This document shows positions 8,092 to 36,709 of a DNA stretch of 64,000 nucleotides, one piece after another. Within the stretch, counting starts at the first letter, position 1, and every line of letters begins with the position of its first letter. The stretch is from Thermofilum sp. NZ13. Lineage in GTDB: Archaea; Thermoproteota; Thermoprotei; Thermofilales; Thermofilaceae. The stretch spans positions 62,001 through 126,000 of the forward strand of contig NDWX01000004.1 of assembly GCA_002855745.1 (NCBI GenBank), in the 5' to 3' direction. The position numbers and the translations under genes are program-made. Below the pieces are notes generated by a model. That model had not been told where the DNA came from. It saw only the letters and a program-made list of their open reading frames with translations, and ran no database searches.

Positions 8092-9270
8092 CTAAATGCC
8101 CTCAACCCTGCCATCCCTATAGATCCTCGCAGCGGGACCCACTACCGATCCAGCCTTGATACGTGCGTAAGGGGCTACGAAGACACCTAGCTTCTTCTTT
8201 TTACCCATCAACCCCTGGAGGGGTAGCTCCCGAGTCAGAGTGTAATCATCGGGGAGCACGCTAAGGACCGTTGTCCGTGGCTCTGCAACGCTCCTGTACC
8301 CCAGGACGCTGTCTGTGATCAGCGAAAAGCTCCCAACAGTCGCGTGCGGTTGAAGGACGCTGCGCTTGATCTCTGTGTGGGCGCCTACCACGGCGTGCTC
8401 CTCTATAGAAGTGTACTCGCGCACGAACGCCCCTTTTCCGACAAACGCCCCTCTACCAACGTACACGGGTCCTTTAAGAACCGCGTAATGGTCTATCGTG
8501 GCTCCCTCGTCGATGATGACGCAGCCCTCCAGGATAGCTGTGTTGGACACCCTAGCCGTAGCCGCAATGGACAGGCCGCACCTCCTTTTCGTTAGGCTGT
8601 AGAACGCGTTTATGAGGTCCCACGGGTAGTCTACTGCAACCCACTCACCGGTCCAGTAAGCTGCGTAGACCCCAATTTTCTCAATCAGGTAGTTAAGAGC
8701 CTCAAAAAACTTCAAACCCCTCTCCAGGAGCACGAGAAACTCCGATGGAAGAATGAACACACCGCCAACGACGTAGCTAGTCTCCTTGCCTGACACGCTT
8801 TCAACGACCCTTGTGACGAGATTTTCCCTTGTGAAAGCCGTTCCGAAGGCTTGAACATCAGGTCTCGGGACAAGAAGAACGCTCGGTCTCTCCTCTCCTC
8901 TATGGACCTCGAGGATTCTTCTAAACGCATCCTCCTCAACTATTACGTCACCGTACACCAGCATGAACCAGTCATCCCCCTCCAAAGCCTCGGCGGCCGC
9001 TAAAAGCGCCCCCTCGATTCCGGGTAATTGCTGAACTCTAACCGAGACGCTGGCGGCGTAGCCGCTCTCATTAACGCTTCTGACTATTTCGCCCATCGGG
9101 ACATCTTCCGAGGTCACAACAATAGCCTTGTCGCCTGTTGCCCGTAGCGCGCTGGTCAAGGGATACATGAAGAGGGGCTTGCCCATAATGCTCAGAAGCG
9201 CCCTTGGGTAACCGTCGGTCAGAGGAAGCATGCGGTTAGTCCTTCCACCGGTTAGAACAACCGTCTTCAT
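8092..9270 (-). CDS. GlmU-like sugar-phosphate nucleotidyltransferase/acetyltransferase
   Basis: The N-terminal half is a nucleotidyltransferase (TVVLTGGRTNRMLPLT, then GYPRALLSIMGKPLF). The C-terminal half, from about residue 235, is a left-handed beta-helix of hexapeptide repeats (AILEGCVIIDEGATI and following). The architecture matches archaeal bifunctional enzymes that acetylate GlcN-1-P and make UDP-GlcNAc. Position two bases before the GT2 gene and three after glmS supports this role. The signature usually reads PKxLL; here it is PRALL, so the sugar or nucleotide preference may differ. 392 residues, ATG start. Confidence 0.8.
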   Translation of the reverse strand: MKTVVLTGGRTNRMLPLTDGYPRALLSIMGKPLFMYPLTSALRATGDKAIVVTSEDVPMGEIVRSVNESGYAASVSVRVQQLPGIEGALLAAAEALEGDDWFMLVYGDVIVEEDAFRRILEVHRGEERPSVLLVPRPDVQAFGTAFTRENLVTRVVESVSGKETSYVVGGVFILPSEFLVLLERGLKFFEALNYLIEKIGVYAAYWTGEWVAVDYPWDLINAFYSLTKRRCGLSIAATARVSNTAILEGCVIIDEGATIDHYAVLKGPVYVGRGAFVGKGAFVREYTSIEEHAVVGAHTEIKRSVLQPHATVGSFSLITDSVLGYRSVAEPRTTVLSVLPDDYTLTRELPLQGLMGKKKKLGVFVAPYARIKAGSVVGPAARIYRDGRVEGI

Positions 9271-9273
9271 ACC

Positions 9274-11091
9274 CTACTCCACCGTCACGGTCTTAGCGAG
9301 GTTCCGTGGCTTGTCGGGATCCGCTCCTCTCTCGACAGCCGTGTAGTATGCTAGGAGCTGAAGCGGAATAACCGATAAAACAGGCAGGAGTAGCTCATCC
9401 TGCGATGGAATAATTACTCTGTCGTCTACTCTCTCAGCGAGCTCGGAGCTTTCCGGCAGAATCCCTACTGTGAAAGCTCCCCTGGCCTTCATCTCCTCAA
9501 CGTTGCCGAGAAGCTTCTTCTCGAGACTACTCTCGATCGACACAAATATCACCGGAAACCCTGGCTCGACTAAAGCTATTGGGCCATGCTTGCTTTCACC
9601 AGCGGGGTATCCCTCGGCGTGCACATAAGCCACCTCCTTCAACTTCAGCGCCCCCTCTAGGGCTATCGGGAGCCCCAGACCTCTGCTCAAATAATATGCG
9701 CTGCTCTTGACCGACATAAACCTGCCCATCTGCTTAGCCCAACCCTCGTTCTTCATGATCACTACCGAGGCCAGATCCGGGAGCGTCCTTAGACGCTCGC
9801 GTATGCTTCTAACGTCTCCCTCATCGAGCCTACCGCTCCTGCGTGCTACTAGCGATGCCAGCCAGGTGAGGGCTGTAAGCTGAGTAGTGAAGGTTTTTGT
9901 GGCTGCAACACCAATTTCGGGCCCAGCCTTCATGTAGACTGCTTGGTCACTTTCTCGTGAAATAACACTCCCGACCACGTTTGTCAGGGAAACAACCCGG
10001 CAGCCCCTGGCCTTAAAGGCCCTGAGGGCCATCAGCGTGTCTATAGTCTCCCCGCTTTGAGAAACCGCTAAAAGGACGTCTCCTCTGCCGGCTAGGTGTG
10101 CGTAGGACTCGTACTCGCTGGATATAAAGGGAATTACCCCCCTCCCAGCCAGCTTTGCCGTTAGAAGAGAGAAGAACAAAGAGGCGTGGTAGCTTGTTCC
10201 GGCTGCTGTGACGAAGATCGTGTCGCTCCCGTGAAGCAGATCGGCTCCCTTCTCGTAGTCCTCTCCGAACCCCGCCACCGTGTCGTTGATTACGCGTGGT
10301 TGCTCGTGGATCTCCTTAAGCATGAAGTGGGGGTAGCCCTCCCGGCGGGCGGACTCAGGGGTCCAGTCAACGGTGAAGACTCTACTGCGAGGGTCCACAA
10401 TCTCCCCGTTGAGCCGCTCGATGTATACGGTATCCCTTGATATGTAGCCGAGCTCACCATCAAGAAGTGTGATCACTCTCCTTGTGTACTCTAGGAATGC
10501 CGGTATGTCCGAAGCCAGGAAGACTCTTCCGTCACCGATCCCGATCACCAGGGGTGAGTGCTTCCGGGCAAAGTATATCCGGTCAGGCGTGTCCTGGATT
10601 AAGACTGCCAGAGCGTAACTGCCCTTGAGCCTCGAGATCGTCCTCTTGAAAGCCGAGAAAGGCTCGTAGCTCTGTGAAAGGTTTTCCTCTATCAAGTGGG
10701 CTACTACCTCGGTGTCCGTCTGGCTTCGAAATACGTGGCCTTTCCTTTCCAGCTCACTCTTCAGCTCAACGTAGTTCTCAATTATGCCGTTGTGGACCAC
10801 AGCGATACGACCCTTGCAGTCGACGTGGGGGTGCGCGTTTTCGTCGGTCGGGGGTCCGTGCGTGGCCCACCTCGTGTGGCCTATACCCACACTCCCTTCA
10901 AGACACGAGAAGCAGAGCCTAGCGTCAACCTCGTCGATTTTCCCAGCGCCTTTAACCACCCTTATTTTCCCCTCGGATATTGTGGCTACTCCTACGCTGT
11001 CGTAACCCCTGTACTCAAGCCTCCGCAGACACTCGCCTAGAACCCTTCCGGCCCTGATCCCGTCGCCGACAATCCCGACGATCCCGCACAC
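9274..11091 (-). CDS. glmS: Glucosamine-fructose-6-phosphate aminotransferase (isomerizing)
   Basis: Makes glucosamine-6-phosphate from fructose-6-phosphate and glutamine. MCGIVGIVG gives the N-terminal nucleophile cysteine (Cys2 before processing). The glutaminase domain (TRWATHGPPTDENAHPH, HNGIIENY) is followed by two SIS domains (FVTAAGTSYHAS, SQSGETIDT, and a second near PIALEGALKLKEVAY), ending DKPRNLAKTVTVE, the canonical GlmS C-terminus. 605 residues, full length. First gene of a four-gene minus-strand operon. Confidence 0.96.
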   Translation of the reverse strand: MCGIVGIVGDGIRAGRVLGECLRRLEYRGYDSVGVATISEGKIRVVKGAGKIDEVDARLCFSCLEGSVGIGHTRWATHGPPTDENAHPHVDCKGRIAVVHNGIIENYVELKSELERKGHVFRSQTDTEVVAHLIEENLSQSYEPFSAFKRTISRLKGSYALAVLIQDTPDRIYFARKHSPLVIGIGDGRVFLASDIPAFLEYTRRVITLLDGELGYISRDTVYIERLNGEIVDPRSRVFTVDWTPESARREGYPHFMLKEIHEQPRVINDTVAGFGEDYEKGADLLHGSDTIFVTAAGTSYHASLFFSLLTAKLAGRGVIPFISSEYESYAHLAGRGDVLLAVSQSGETIDTLMALRAFKARGCRVVSLTNVVGSVISRESDQAVYMKAGPEIGVAATKTFTTQLTALTWLASLVARRSGRLDEGDVRSIRERLRTLPDLASVVIMKNEGWAKQMGRFMSVKSSAYYLSRGLGLPIALEGALKLKEVAYVHAEGYPAGESKHGPIALVEPGFPVIFVSIESSLEKKLLGNVEEMKARGAFTVGILPESSELAERVDDRVIIPSQDELLLPVLSVIPLQLLAYYTAVERGADPDKPRNLAKTVTVE

Positions 11092-11221
11092 AGTTCTCTT
11101 CCTAGAAGCAGGTTAATAAGCTGTACGTATAGCAATCTGCATACAGTTGAAGCCCAGCTTATTTTACGACAAAACTAATTGAAACTCCCTGGATAAGAGT
11201 ACAAGTGGTGGGTCGGGTCAC

Positions 11222-11356
11222 ATGGAGGAAATAACGATGGAGGAATTCCTTAGCAGGTTTGCAGGGAAGAGGATCCGCGTGAGGCGCGTTGCGGCACCCC
11301 CTCCCGGGATTGTGATTGAATCTATGGGAAGCGTTTACCTAGTAAAGGTAAAATAG
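11222..11356 (+). CDS. 44-residue conserved-looking miniprotein
   Basis: A short ORF, ATG to TAG, encoding a charged N-terminal helix (MEEITMEEFLSRFAGKR), an arginine-rich stretch and a C-terminal beta-like segment ending VYLVKVK. Its start follows GGGTCACATGG without a clear Shine-Dalgarno site. The ORF is followed by T-runs. The partial protein at 63806 (also small, basic-then-beta) has a vaguely similar layout, but I see no sequence identity. Unknown function; it could be spurious. Confidence 0.4.
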   Translation: MEEITMEEFLSRFAGKRIRVRRVAAPPPGIVIESMGSVYLVKVK

Positions 11357-11357
11357 C

Positions 11358-11375
11358 CTTTTTTCTGACTTTTTC
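11358..11375 (+). terminator. T-rich terminator after the miniprotein
   Basis: Two T-runs (TTTTTT and TTTTT) directly after the TAG at 11354-11356 look like an archaeal terminator for the 44-codon gene, which supports its being transcribed as a unit. Confidence 0.4.
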
Positions 11376-11382
11376 AACGTTA

Positions 11383-11679
11383 GTGATGTTTGGTAGAGAT
11401 GTTAAGGCTCTTGCTAGGAAGATAATCGTCCACAGGTACGACTACTTCTCCGGAGACAGGCTCAACAGTGAAGGTAGGAAGGTTTTCGAGGAAATGGCGA
11501 GGATGCTCGTCTTCGAGCACCCTTACTACAAGAAACGAGTTAAGGAAGTTAGACGCAGAGGAGACTTTGAGTCTTTCATCAAGCTAGCTGAGCTGATTCT
11601 CGGGGAAGCAGAAACGAAGAGCCTGGTCTCAGCTACTCTGAGCTCTCCGTACAAAGAGCGGGGAGCTTCTGGTGCTTAG
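11383..11679 (+). CDS. Small helical protein of unknown function
   Basis: 98 residues, rich in lysine, arginine and aromatic residues (VKALARKIIVHRYDYFSGDRL, YYKKRVKEVRRRGDFES). No cysteines or membrane segments. GTG 11383 or ATG 11386 can start it. It meets the minus-strand gene at its 3' end with a four-base overlap. Not recognised. Confidence 0.5.
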   Translation: MMFGRDVKALARKIIVHRYDYFSGDRLNSEGRKVFEEMARMLVFEHPYYKKRVKEVRRRGDFESFIKLAELILGEAETKSLVSATLSSPYKERGASGA

Positions 11680-12161
11680 CTTGTCATCAAGTCTACTTTG
11701 ATGATACCTTCGAGGTCGAAGTAGAGGATCCTCGCATCCTTAAAGGAGATGTACTTCGACTGGCCGTCGCTTGCAACCTCGTATGTCAAGAGGATCTTGC
11801 ACGGGGCCTCGGTGATGCCTCTTCTCTCGATCTCTTCTATGAGCCTTCTAGCCACTTTCCGCCACTCTTCAAGGCTCTTACTGCGGTCAACTCCTTGCTC
11901 CTTTGCCAGCCTGGACAGCGTCGCGTAGAAGGCTTTCCTGAGGTTGAACATAGCCCCCCTTGAACTCGGGCTAATAGGGGACTGGATCGTGTTTGCAAGC
12001 GCACTAACCTCCACTACGTCCAGAAACTGCCTCAGGTTCCGGCCGAGCTGCTCTATGTAGGTTCGCATGGCCTCGGGGAATTTCCTCTCCCTAATACCCT
12101 CTTCTACGAGCTTAAGCACTAGGTTAACATTACTTACAAGGTCCTCCATGCTTACATCCAA
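11676..12161 (-). CDS. Conserved hypothetical protein, helical
   Basis: 161 residues. The N-terminal 110 residues are helical with many charged residues (VLKLVEEGIRERKFPEAM). The C-terminal part is beta-rich (CKILLTYEVASDGQSKYISF, RILYFDLEGIIKVDL). The ATG start lies about 25 bases downstream of TTTAAAC-like elements on the minus strand near 12180-12195. Not recognised; monocistronic. Confidence 0.55.
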   Translation of the reverse strand: MDVSMEDLVSNVNLVLKLVEEGIRERKFPEAMRTYIEQLGRNLRQFLDVVEVSALANTIQSPISPSSRGAMFNLRKAFYATLSRLAKEQGVDRSKSLEEWRKVARRLIEEIERRGITEAPCKILLTYEVASDGQSKYISFKDARILYFDLEGIIKVDLMTS

Positions 12162-12301
12162 TTTAAATCCTCACTGCAAAGTTTTTAAACTTTTACTTAT
12201 TAAATCAGCCCAAACGTGGGCACCTCGTTACGCGGCTAGTGTAAAAGGGCTAAAAAGTGAGATGTGCAAGAAATAAATTGTAGAAAGCGTAGTGTGTAAA
12301 C

Positions 12302-13495
12302 GTGTCAAGCCCAATCCTGCGGGTAAGCTCTTCTGCCAGCCGGCTAGGCGCCGAGGAGGCTTTCGTTTACCTGGCGCGCAGTATGGAGCTAAGGCGCAAA
12401 GGCGTAGATGTAGTGTCTTTCGGAATCGGGCAGCCAGACTTTCAGCCCCCGCCGAATGTTATAGCGTATGCCAAGGAGGCCATGGACGCCGGCTATAACG
12501 GCTACGGTCCAAGTCTCGGGATGCCTGAGCTCAGGGAATCTATTGCGGATTTCCTGAACGAGAGGTACGGGTTGGACGTTCAGCCAGACGAGGTTGCGGT
12601 TACGGCTGGGGCGAAAGCGGCTGTCTTCATCGGTATGCTGGCCCTTTTGGAGCCGGGTGACGAAGTCATTCTCCCCGACCCCTCGTACCCGCTGTACGAG
12701 TCGGTAGCTAACTTCGTCGGCGCAAGAACCAGGTTCGTGAGACTGCACAGCGGGAACAATTACAAAATCCGTTTCGAGGACGTGGAAAAACTGGTATCGA
12801 GTAAGACTAGGATGGTAGTCATAAACTACCCTGAAAACCCCGTGGGCTCCACGATGGACAGGAAGGCTGTCGAGGCGCTAGTGGAGCTTGCCTATGAGAA
12901 GAGGTTTGTCGTACTATCGGATGAAATATACAACCACTTTGTCTACGAGAGCTCTCACTACTCGACACTGCAGACCGACCACTGGCGGGAAGTCGTCTAC
13001 TACGTCAACGGCTTCTCGAAGACTTTTGGGATGACGGGCTGGAGGCTCGGCTATGTCGTTTCAAACAGGGAGCTCTTATCTAAGCTCTCCGTCATCGCCA
13101 ACAACATGTACTCCTGCCCTGTAACCTTCGCCCAGATAGCGGCGGCAAAGGCTCTAAGGGACGGCCTCGAGTGGTTCAAGCCCATACTGGATCAGTACAG
13201 ACGTAGGCGAGACCTTATATACAATAGGCTCCTCTCGATAAGAGGTGTGAAGGTGGTAAAACCCGAAGGAGCGTTCTACATCTTCCCGGATTTCTCAGAT
13301 GTCATACGAGCGAAGGGCGTAAAGAACGAGAGGGAGCTTGCAGACAAACTGTTGGAGGAAAAGGGAGTCGTGGTACTACCGGGAACAGCTTTCCCCAAGG
13401 AGGCGGGTGTTAACCATCTGAGGTTCTCCTTCGCGGTCAGAGAGGAGGATATAGAGAAGGGCATTGAGAGGATAAAAGCCTGGGTTGCAGAGTGA
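12302..13495 (+). CDS. Class I/II PLP-dependent aminotransferase
   Basis: An aspartate-aminotransferase-fold enzyme of 397 residues. The PLP lysine sits in NGFSKTFGMTGWRLGY; other motifs are GIGQPDFQPPP, YGPSLGMPELRE, NYPENPVGS and SDEIYNHF. Family members transfer amino groups between aspartate, aromatic or other amino acids and 2-oxoglutarate; the substrate cannot be assigned. GTG start matches a TATA-like AAATAAATT at 12269-12277, implying a leaderless transcript. A second aminotransferase of this fold is at 58342. Confidence 0.88.
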   Translation: MSSPILRVSSSASRLGAEEAFVYLARSMELRRKGVDVVSFGIGQPDFQPPPNVIAYAKEAMDAGYNGYGPSLGMPELRESIADFLNERYGLDVQPDEVAVTAGAKAAVFIGMLALLEPGDEVILPDPSYPLYESVANFVGARTRFVRLHSGNNYKIRFEDVEKLVSSKTRMVVINYPENPVGSTMDRKAVEALVELAYEKRFVVLSDEIYNHFVYESSHYSTLQTDHWREVVYYVNGFSKTFGMTGWRLGYVVSNRELLSKLSVIANNMYSCPVTFAQIAAAKALRDGLEWFKPILDQYRRRRDLIYNRLLSIRGVKVVKPEGAFYIFPDFSDVIRAKGVKNERELADKLLEEKGVVVLPGTAFPKEAGVNHLRFSFAVREEDIEKGIERIKAWVAE

Positions 13496-33986: not shown

Positions 33987-34077
33987 CACACGCACTTGAT
34001 CAAGCTTTTGCGCATTTTTCGTCAAGTTTTCCACGGGAGGCCTGTTATTTTAAGAGTTTGATGCAGTTTTGCGTTCA

Positions 34078-34121
34078 CAAAACAGCGTATTACCCTCGTA
34101 CTACGCCTTTGCGCTGTTTTG
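34078..34121. repeat. 10-bp inverted repeat between convergent genes
   Basis: CAAAACAGCG (34078-34087) and CGCTGTTTTG (34112-34121), 24-base spacer. It lies between the ends of the gene at 33228 and the minus-strand gene at 34174, where a bidirectional terminator hairpin would make sense. Confidence 0.45.
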
Positions 34122-34173
34122 CACATGGCGGGAAGAAACCGGAAGTTGGGGAAAATGCTTAGAAAAAGCCTGC

Positions 34174-34602
34174 TTAAGCTAAGCTCAGCTCGACAACGCA
34201 CTTCTGGCCGTCCTTCCTAAGGGGGAGACCGTTGGCTTTAGCCCCGGTGTAGCCGCTCAGAAGCCCGGGGATGGGGCACAGAGGCTCGGTGAGGTCAGCG
34301 CCGCCGACAGCTCTGGGGCAGATCCTGCAGGTCGAGCTGTCGATCGTGACTCTTAGGGTCTGGCCGTCACGCGCGGCCTCCAAGCTACCGGCGAAGCCCA
34401 GAAGCCCGTTCAGGAACACGGCGGCTTCAGCCGGGTCCTCCGGGGCCCCGTACTCCTCCCTGAGAGCCTTCCCGACCCTGGCCATCGCGCCCTTCACGAT
34501 CGCGTACTTGAGGAACCCCTCGTCGCGGAAGGCCGCGAAGGACTTAGCTATGAAGAAGTGGTGCGGCTGGACACCCCTCCTGAGGATCTCCTCCCTGCTC
34601 AC
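34174..34602 (-). CDS. Unknown cysteine-motif protein (mini-locus)
   Basis: 142 residues. Helical N-terminal half (HHFFIAKSFAAFRDEGFLKYA) and a C-terminal part with STCRICPRAVGG and LCPIPGLLSGY: a CxxCP and a CP-x-PG separated by about 12 residues. This faintly recalls the cysteine signature of V4R-type small-molecule-binding domains, but I would not assign it. Its start overlaps the zinc-ribbon gene by four bases. The pair is driven by one arm of the mirrored promoter. Confidence 0.5.
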   Translation of the reverse strand: MSREEILRRGVQPHHFFIAKSFAAFRDEGFLKYAIVKGAMARVGKALREEYGAPEDPAEAAVFLNGLLGFAGSLEAARDGQTLRVTIDSSTCRICPRAVGGADLTEPLCPIPGLLSGYTGAKANGLPLRKDGQKCVVELSLA

Positions 34603-34844
34603 CTCCCACCACCTCCTTGCACCGGAACCTGAGCTAGTATCGCTACGCGCACACCCCTCTCGTGGCCGTTCGCGTCGAAATGTATTAGCAGCGCGTGGTC
34701 GCCGTGGGGCACAGCCACCACGGCTAGGCCGGTCGGCGAGGCTTTAGCCTCCTCCACGACCCTAGGCCCCACGCTGACGAGCACTTCTCCCCCGCACCTC
34801 GGGCACTTAACACGAGCCAACCTGAAACTGTCCATATCCGTCAC
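34599..34844 (-). CDS. 81-residue zinc-ribbon module protein
   Basis: Nearly the whole protein aligns, without large gaps, with residues 5-75 of the GTPase-operon protein at 14082: CPRCGGEV, EEAKASPTGLAVVAVPHGDH, HFDANGHERGVRV. One CxxC plus conserved histidines and aspartates. Leaderless: its ATG (34842-34844) lies about 26 bases after the TTTTTAAA of the left promoter arm. First gene of a two-gene unit. Function unknown. Confidence 0.6.
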   Translation of the reverse strand: MTDMDSFRLARVKCPRCGGEVLVSVGPRVVEEAKASPTGLAVVAVPHGDHALLIHFDANGHERGVRVAILAQVPVQGGGGR

Positions 34845-34865
34845 GTTTCTTACTTAATGGGTGGG

Positions 34866-34892
34866 GCTTTAAAAAGGATTTAGTTCAAAACC
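34866..34892 (-). promoter_or_regulatory. Left arm of mirrored promoter pair
   Basis: On the minus strand this reads GGTTTTGAACTAAATCC, then TTTTTAAAGC; 27 bases identical to the arm at 35009-35035. The TTTTTAAA is the TATA box for the 81-residue gene; the upstream part is the likely operator/BRE. Confidence 0.8.
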
Positions 34893-35008
34893 CCGGGAGC
34901 GTTTTCCCGTGGAAAAGGCACTTATCCAGCCTCAGAGCGTGAGTCAGTGGCCGAAGCGGTGAGGTCGCCGGCCGCGCCTGACTGGGTGATGAGCGCTGGG
35001 TTGTGGGA
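34893..35008. other. Spacer between mirrored promoters, G/C-rich with stem potential
   Basis: 116 bases without ORF support. AGTCAG...GGCCG near 34932-34943 can pair with CGGCC...CTGACT near 34969-34984. A CTGA-ctgg-GTGATGA string (34980-34992) resembles the D'/C' part of a C/D RNA, but no matching C and D boxes complete it. Confidence 0.3.
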
Positions 35009-35035
35009 GGTTTTGAACTAAATCCTTTTTAAAGC
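35009..35035 (+). promoter_or_regulatory. Right arm of mirrored promoter pair
   Basis: Exact inverted copy of 34866-34892. TTTTTAAA (35026-35033) is centred about 26 bases before GTG 35056, giving a leaderless transcript. Confidence 0.8.
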
Positions 35036-35055: not shown

Positions 35056-35436
35056 GTGGCAGTTGTGCGGGGCTCCTACGTGAACGTAAGGCTGAGCATC
35101 AACGGGGAGGAGCTGCTAGTGCCCGTGGTGGGCGAGAGTAGCGTCGCCGTCGAGAACCGGGAGCCGCGGCCAGCAAACCTGAGGCTGGAGCTCGTCGGAG
35201 CGGAGTGGTCCCCAGTGCCCGTTGTGCTCAAAGTCGAGGTTAACGGCAAAGCGGTCTACATAGGGAGGAGCACGAGGAGCGGCGAGTCGTGGAGCTTCCA
35301 GGTGCCGCCTAAGGGGGAGGTCACGTTAAGGTTCACGGTTGTGGCTCCCCCGCGCTTAGCCGCGGCTAGCGCTCCCTCCGTTTCGCTGAGGGTGTCCTTC
35401 GAGCAGGCGGCACCGAAACCCCTTATACGCCGATAG
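35056..35436 (+). CDS. Unknown beta-sandwich-like protein (mini-locus)
   Basis: 126 residues, almost all beta strands (VNVRLSINGEELLVPVVGES, VVLKVEVNGKAVYIG, GEVTLRFTVVAPPR), no cysteines, no signal peptide. Looks like an Ig-like or adaptor domain. The GTG start is fixed by the promoter arm. Because its promoter is identical to that of the divergent zinc-ribbon pair, the three genes should be expressed together. Not recognised. Confidence 0.55.
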   Translation: MAVVRGSYVNVRLSINGEELLVPVVGESSVAVENREPRPANLRLELVGAEWSPVPVVLKVEVNGKAVYIGRSTRSGESWSFQVPPKGEVTLRFTVVAPPRLAAASAPSVSLRVSFEQAAPKPLIRR

Positions 35437-35471
35437 AAACATATTTGTATATATCTCCCTTCCTTTCAAGT

Positions 35472-35813
35472 GTGAGTGGCACAGAGGAGGTTTCGGAGGA
35501 GAGACTCTTTGAGCTGCAAGCCCGGCTGTGCAAGTTCATGAGCCACCCGCTGAGGCTACGGCTGCTCGAGCTCCTCGAGAGCCAGGAGCGGAGCGTCTCA
35601 GAGCTCGTCGAGCTTACGGGCGAGCCTCAGCCCGTGGTCTCGAGGCACCTCGCCTACATGCAGCAGCTCGGCATAGTGACGTCCGAGAGGAGGGGCACAA
35701 AGGTGTACTACAAGGTCAAGTACCCCGAGCTCAGGGAGGCGTGCAAGATCCTCCGCGGCGTGCTCGTGAAGATCCTTAAGGAGGGCAGAAGCCTCGCCCT
35801 GATCAGCGAATAG
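35472..35813 (+). CDS. ArsR-family transcriptional regulator
   Basis: 113 residues from GTG 35472. Winged helix: CKFMSHPLRLRLLELLE, SVSELVELTGEPQPVVSRHLAYMQQLGIV, RRGTKVYYKV. No metal-sensing CxC pair. An upstream TTG at 35445 lies inside the TATA box (TTTGTATATAT, 35444-35454), so it cannot be the start. It sits beside the mirrored promoters and could be their repressor (inference). The downstream CPBP gene follows by 26 bases. Confidence 0.8.
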   Translation: MSGTEEVSEERLFELQARLCKFMSHPLRLRLLELLESQERSVSELVELTGEPQPVVSRHLAYMQQLGIVTSERRGTKVYYKVKYPELREACKILRGVLVKILKEGRSLALISE

Positions 35814-35839: not shown

Positions 35840-36709
35840 TTGGAAAGGCCTCTCGGGGTGCAGGGCGTGGAGAACTGGGTGAAGGGGGTCTTAGCCTACA
35901 CAGCACTGAGCTTTGCCCACGCTTCATCTATCGACTACGCTTTCGCCTCTACCGCAGACACTGCTCCCGGGGTGGCTTTAGCGTGGGGCTTCCTGAGGAT
36001 GTACACACCTACCCTAAGCGCGCTGCTTGTTGCACTGCTCGTCGACAGGGGCGGGAGCGTGCTGGAGGCCCTCGGCTTGAGAATGGCGGGTGGGAGGGTT
36101 GTCGTCTGGTACTTGCTTGCCCCGCTCCTCGTGCTCCCCCCGCTTGCCCTTTGCCTGCTCTTCGAGGCGCTCCTCGGGAAGCTCGACCTCGCTGGGCTGT
36201 CTGCGAGCCTGGGACCTGTCAGGCTGGACCCGCTGGTGGTTCTCTCCCTGTCGGTTCTATCGGGGTACTTCGCTGCAGTCACCGTTAACGCTCTCTTTGC
36301 GCTTGGTGAAGAGGTGGGCTGGAGAGGCTACTTGTACCACGCGCTGCTCCCGCGGCTCGGGTACTACAAGACCGTTCTAGCGGTAGGCATACTCTGGGGT
36401 TTCTGGCACGCTACTGCTATACTCTGGCTCGGCCATAACTACCCTGTGCACCGCGTGGAGGGAGCGCTCCTGTTCCCCCTCCTCACAGTCCTCCTATCAC
36501 TCCCCATGTTCTACCTACGGGAGACATCGGGGAGCGTGCTGCCCGCGGCCAGCTTCCACGGGGCTGTGAACGCGTGGTGGGCGCTCACGGTGCTTGCCGC
36601 TCCAACGCTAGGTGACCTTGAGGGAGGAGTAGGGGCGGTCGGCATACTGTCTTGGGCGCTGTACGCCCTCGTCTACGCCCTCAGAAAAAGAAAGAATGCC
36701 TTTAAGTAG
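35840..36709 (+). CDS. CPBP-family intramembrane metalloprotease
   Basis: 289 residues, about eight membrane segments. The Abi/CPBP motifs are intact: GEEVGWRGYLY (EExxxR), GFWHA, and ASFHGAVNAWW. Members cleave membrane-bound substrates (CAAX proteins, peptides) and some protect against toxic peptides. TTG start assumed. Probably cotranscribed with the ArsR gene. Its end overlaps the end of the opposite frameshifted gene by eight bases. Confidence 0.85.
   Translation: MERPLGVQGVENWVKGVLAYTALSFAHASSIDYAFASTADTAPGVALAWGFLRMYTPTLSALLVALLVDRGGSVLEALGLRMAGGRVVVWYLLAPLLVLPPLALCLLFEALLGKLDLAGLSASLGPVRLDPLVVLSLSVLSGYFAAVTVNALFALGEEVGWRGYLYHALLPRLGYYKTVLAVGILWGFWHATAILWLGHNYPVHRVEGALLFPLLTVLLSLPMFYLRETSGSVLPAASFHGAVNAWWALTVLAAPTLGDLEGGVGAVGILSWALYALVYALRKRKNAFK

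Follow-up and report, generated by a model that had tools for sequence, protein, structure and literature searches.

The region described here belongs to a window of 64 kb, the whole stretch of Thermofilum sp. NZ13 DNA that was analysed (genome G000 in the comparisons below), and contains two gene units facing away from each other on either side of a short inverted repeat. Homologues of the ORFs on both sides are encoded in related genomes. The left unit is an operon on the minus strand whose first gene (34599..34844) encodes an 81-aa CxxC zinc-ribbon-like protein and whose second gene (34174..34602) encodes a 142-aa cysteine-rich protein. On the right, the plus strand carries a gene for a 126-aa all-beta, Ig-like protein (35056..35436), followed by an ArsR-family winged-helix gene (35445..35813, plus strand; HTH_5, E = 2.7e-12) and a gene for a CAAX-protease-like (Rce1) membrane protein (35840-36709). 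Each of the other six genomes of the genus encodes a homologue of the right gene. The structural model of its product is all-beta (pLDDT 72) with matches to generic beta-sandwiches only, and the protein is taken here as putatively Ig-like and nothing more specific. For the 142-aa protein a V4R identity had been suspected by eye but was dropped, as there was no Pfam match and a profile search gave nothing meaningful; its single-sequence model was too poor to be used (pLDDT 44). A paralogue of this protein with 45% identity and without a good promoter box is located at L173:6551-7009 (G000:C24:138580), a few kb before the pilin cluster described below.

As the initial annotation had stated, the arms of the repeat (34866-34892 and 35009-35035) match each other as reverse complements at 27/27 positions and are separated by 116 nt; the repeat can be extended imperfectly to 34 nt (91%). 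In the window no second inverted repeat is exact over 18 bp or more within 1 kb. The 17-mer GGTTTTGAACTAAATCC occurs with up to three mismatches at two places in the window, compared with 0.12 expected, and its only two exact copies in the 1.88 Mb genome lie in the arms. Both arms have the layout of a promoter pointing outward, TTGAACTAAA-N3-TTTTTAAA, in which TTGAACTAAA is a 10-bp non-palindromic box three bases before a TATA octamer. The left arm (minus strand) serves the left operon with its box at 34879-34888 and its TATA box at 34868-34875, the right arm (plus strand) the right gene with the box at 35013-35022 and the TATA box TTTTTAAA at 35026-35033. Between the end of the TATA box and the GTG start codon lie 22 nt on the right and 23 nt on the left. 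The 26 bases given earlier for this distance have to be corrected, whereas the near-leaderless geometry that was meant holds, and near-leaderless transcripts are to be expected from both units.

A promoter box shared within the family

The same arrangement is present well beyond the two arms. The six other genomes of the genus all have TGAACTAAA and then a TATA element immediately before the right gene, so that the box precedes this gene in 7/7. When box and TATA element are allowed to be 2-6 nt apart, one spacing is shared by 15 of the 19 places in the seven genomes; a reversed control pattern has no place at all in these genomes. With the fixed pattern TTGAACTAAANNNYTTWWAAA and up to two mismatches, 36 places were obtained in the seven genomes of the genus versus two for reversed-pattern controls. 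When 27 genomes of the order were searched with at most one mismatch, 33 places were obtained versus three. All 33 matches lie within the family, where 12 of 17 genomes carry some, and at this stringency the ten genomes of the order outside the family have none. An alignment of the 33 sites reveals little conservation beyond the box and the TATA element, the invariance of the box columns being partly built in by a search pattern that demanded them. Two of the sites with one mismatch, both in G002, precede unrelated genes and may be due to chance, consistent with the control rate.

Whether the motif occurs at random elsewhere in the genome had been proposed as a check, and the outcome favours a true motif, with fixed-spacing matches far above the reversed controls. 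By this distribution the promoter element is not a local duplicate; the motif is family-wide and old. A recent duplication, which the initial annotation had offered as one origin of the motif, is not supported by such a distribution, nor by the arms of G011, where the identity over 22 nt is only 91%. Exact 27-bp arms around a short spacer would also be the appearance of a MITE-like mobile element with terminal inverted repeats, or of a recent local duplication of the repeat as a whole. Yet GGTTTTGAACTAAATCC has no further copy in the genome, G011 is occupied at the same locus, and the core of the arms is found singly upstream of other genes throughout the family. A mobile element was rejected on these grounds, and an origin of this kind is extremely improbable. 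The striking symmetry of the locus is that of two divergent members of one family-wide promoter type: an inverted repeat is formed because two like promoters face apart. It follows that inverted repeats can arise merely from the divergence of two co-regulated genes.

Genes behind the box

In addition to the right gene, the left operon with the zinc-ribbon and the 142-aa cysteine-rich protein is preceded by the box in G000, G013 and G011. Homologues of the 142-aa protein which are not linked to the right gene have the box as well, namely in G012 and at two places in G009. That the link between the two units of the window is functional, and not merely one of position, is supported most strongly by this finding.

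The most widespread further member is a secreted protein of about 190 aa, which has the box in six genomes of the genus, G000, G013, G011, G015, G012 and G016, and also in G008 (the boxes in G012 and G016 have three mismatches, and the fragmented G014 was left out of this count). Its profile has a single match among solved structures, 7ueg_A ('Pilin', E = 9.3e-31), covering profile positions 8-183 and thus nearly the full length. We take 7ueg_A to be the bundling pilin of Pyrobaculum calidifontis. The existence of the latter is cited elsewhere (PMC9715654). An adjoining gene for a surface protein of about 480 aa carries the box in G000, G013, G011 and G012. A third gene in tandem, also for a surface protein, has a box of its own with three mismatches in G000 and G013. 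In G000 the cluster is located on L173 (G000:C24) at about 9253-13450 and comprises a membrane-anchored winged-helix protein, the bundling pilin, the surface protein of about 480 aa and the third surface gene. Three tandem TTGAACTAAA-type boxes are found in this cluster, one before each structural gene.

The remaining members are smaller groups: a membrane protein of about 120 aa (G000, G013, G011), MscS channels (Pfam MS_channel_2nd; G000, G013, G016, G009), roadblock-type proteins (G014, G016, G009; the assignment is by a Robl_LC7 match for the G014 protein and by resemblance for the other two) and a family of 107-aa membrane proteins (G002, G010, G014). Since a box of fixed spacing precedes a small recurring set of genes all over the family, including an AbpA-type bundling-pilus cluster, both units of the window can be placed in one regulon. 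The co-regulation by one factor that the initial annotation had suggested is well supported by this comparison, as the core of TTGAACTAAA plus TATA precedes both genes even where they are far apart, and other recurring genes besides.

What emerges is a sequence-defined regulon of a pilin cluster, two small cytosolic units, MscS channels and roadblock-type proteins, and it falls in a group without described promoter regulation in the literature searched. The regulon itself appears to be undescribed there, whereas the class of mechanism discussed below is already known. Archaeal bundling pili have been compared with the TasA biofilm fibre, and to our knowledge no regulation of such pili has been described.

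The spacer and its inversion

The spacer between the arms (34893..35008, 116 nt, plus strand) contains features of its own. A BRE/TATA-like stretch of the ordinary type, GGAAAAGGCACTTATCC (34911..34927, plus strand), is a candidate promoter of a spacer RNA, judged from the sequence and from an alignment with G011 and G013. Downstream lies an element (34959..34992, plus strand) that is conserved in G011, G013 and G016. It consists of a box C-like GTGAGGT (34959-34965), a guide-like stretch of 12 nt (34966-34977), CTGA (34978-34981) and RTGATGA (34986-34992). The pattern common to the window and the three genomes, GTGARG(A/T)-N12-CTGA-N4-RTGATGA, resembles the succession of box C, guide, D' and C' in a C/D box sRNA. 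The match to the Rfam family snoPyro_CD is weak (17.4 bits, below threshold), and a D box is missing at the expected place. No full match to the guide-like stretch was found in the fetched rDNA region, the best duplexes there pairing 10-11 of the 12 nt and the better ones falling outside the rRNA genes; at the near-matches, the places inspected for tRNAs, none was present. Reading the element as a peptide from an in-frame GTG was rejected, because the changes fall at second codon positions with the third positions fixed, and also because variable and fixed columns fit the C/D-box consensus. Outside the repeat, an 80-bp intergenic stretch (34027-34106) is 92.5% identical in G011 compared with about 67% around it, and 39 bp of it are also present in G016, close to the same neighbour. 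The stretch can form a long hairpin (z -1.67); it may represent a small RNA or else a terminator.

The orientation of the spacer relative to the right gene is the same in G011 and G016 as in the window. In G013, a genome of the same species, the spacer lies the other way round with respect to the genes on either side (the alignment has z = 9.5 when flipped and -0.6 when not). In the comparison with L033 of this genome, the left operon and the spacer are part of an 886-bp island, corresponding to 34124-35009 of the window, with about 65-73% identity versus 92-93% in the flanks. One border of the island is at the right arm. This points to an exchange for a divergent allele, and the flip, being inside the island, may have been brought in together with it. 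The TATA elements of the arms vary among the genomes: G000 has TTTTTAAA in both arms and G013 TTTATAAA in both, while those of G011 differ from each other. These few positions hint that the exactness of the arms in G000 may reflect homogenisation, either by inversion of the spacer or by gene conversion.

Both orientations in close relatives (G013 versus G000, G011 and G016), together with arms that are perfect or nearly so in G000 as well as in G013, would be expected of an invertible DNA switch, in which recombination between the arms flips the spacer and alters expression (phase variation). However, an inversion does not change which gene has a promoter: the arms carry an identical outward promoter, and each gene is left with the same one after a flip. 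In addition, the core of the arms is explained as a regulon box that is found singly elsewhere, and the only flip observed is the one within the perhaps imported island of G013. A switch of this kind is accordingly a very unlikely explanation of the repeat. What recombination between the arms could do is invert the RNA element of the spacer with both promoters unchanged.

Reading of the box and related systems

The box partly overlaps the position of a normal BRE, and the bases next to the TATA element differ from those of the ordinary promoters in this genome. Counted relative to the TATA octamer, an A at -3 is present in 14 of 19 ordinary promoters versus 11 of 33 box promoters (Fisher P 0.009) and an A at -2 in 13/19 versus 7/33 (Fisher P 0.001), the sample being small and the 33 sites, which are from related species, not independent. 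By these counts the box promoters are without the A-rich BRE that is usual in ordinary promoters of the genome. A conserved box immediately upstream of BRE/TATA at a fixed distance is thus combined with a BRE deviating from that of the same genome.

We therefore regard the arms, with a probability of about 0.6, as two outward copies of one promoter in which an activator box stands beside a weak BRE, and which belongs to a regulon of pilus and envelope genes and of both units in the window. According to this model a dedicated activator would bind the TTGAACTAAA box and recruit TFB to the weak BRE, and pilus and envelope genes would thereby be switched on together with the two units. An activator box was chosen because the EarA, ara-box, TFB-RF1 and Sulfolobus UV hexamer promoters likewise combine a box with an adjacent weak BRE, and recruitment of TFB by the activator has been proposed for them (PMC5512572; PMC10665913; PMC5937170; PMC5817253). 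Activation instead of repression is suggested by the position of the box and the weak BRE only.

As to the factor itself, the regulon provides a named candidate. In six genomes (G000, G013, G011, G015, G016 and G008) the pilin gene is immediately preceded by the gene of a membrane-anchored winged-helix protein which, as a tentative guess, is the likeliest activator. The protein (295 aa) has two hydrophobic segments, one N-terminal and one near residue 132, and its winged helix (HTH_HVO_0163_N, E = 6.9e-10) is C-terminal. In the surroundings of the boxes in G012, G009, G014, G002 and G010 it was not found.

The ArsR-family protein, suggested as the factor in the initial annotation (35472), would have to bind both arms and control both units. 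It has the attraction of a winged-helix domain and of a gene adjoining the right gene in G000, G013, G011 and G016. It is nevertheless a poor candidate, because no homologue was detected in G015, where the box is kept at the right gene and the pilin, and because it is unlinked in G012 and G014; moreover, the box is not the palindrome expected for ArsR dimers. Control by this protein is unlikely.

The overlap of box and BRE position makes a direct reading by a TFB paralogue possible. A divergent second TFB would then recognise TTGAACTAAA itself, and the regulon would be set by a switch of general factors in the manner of sigma factors. Such a role would agree with the fixed TATA spacing, the BRE overlap, the non-palindromic box and the missing ordinary BRE, and every genome that bears the motif encodes a second TFB, less similar to TFIIB. 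Second TFBs are, however, also present in the motif-free family genomes G001, G003 and G006, a box of 10 bp is longer than a BRE, and the known cases with a weak BRE use separate activators. We consider this alternative, the main rival of the activator box, rather unlikely; if it were true, the bundling-pilus and envelope programme of the family would be switched on by an exchange of general transcription factors. Within the genus, every genome encodes the canonical TFB and, in addition, a highly divergent one (G000:C6:21549-22121 and its equivalents).

Among known systems, the bundling pilus resembles the present case in that the pilin of the regulon matches 7ueg_A; the likeness concerns a structural gene and not a promoter feature, and no such promoter box is reported for this pilus in the literature searched. 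ArnR and ArnR1 are membrane-tethered HTH one-component activators of surface filaments and are in this respect similar to the winged-helix protein linked to the pilin. For ArnR the HTH is N-terminal and the boxes are inverted repeats further upstream (PMC6396743), whereas here the winged helix is C-terminal and the box is not palindromic. In the small regulon of TFB-RF1 (PF1088) of Pyrococcus furiosus, too, the BRE is weak and a site adjoins it upstream; this site is palindromic (TCTG-N5-CAGA) in contrast to the box described here (PMC5937170). The Sulfolobus ara-box and the UV hexamer A(N)TTTC are likewise located immediately upstream of a weak BRE at scattered genes (PMC5817253; PMC5512572), and the UV hexamer is also non-palindromic and controls pilus genes (PMC5817253). 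Their sequences are different, with the UV motif at -39 to -44 (PMC5817253), and the box of the present regulon is longer and at an almost fixed distance from the TATA element. The EarA boxes of archaellum promoters in Methanococcus and Thermococcales are also short, at a fixed distance just upstream of a weak BRE, and control genes for surface filaments through an activator which is thought to recruit TFB (PMC5512572; PMC10665913). The EarA motif contains TACA and is often repeated, and in Thermococcales it lies upstream of the BRE by about nine nt (PMC5512572; PMC10665913). A conserved stretch of the TACA type is missing upstream in the 33-site alignment, and a single 10-bp TTGAACTAAA box overlaps the BRE position instead. 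With such a box the model of recruitment to a weak BRE, known so far from few cases, becomes testable on one short promoter.
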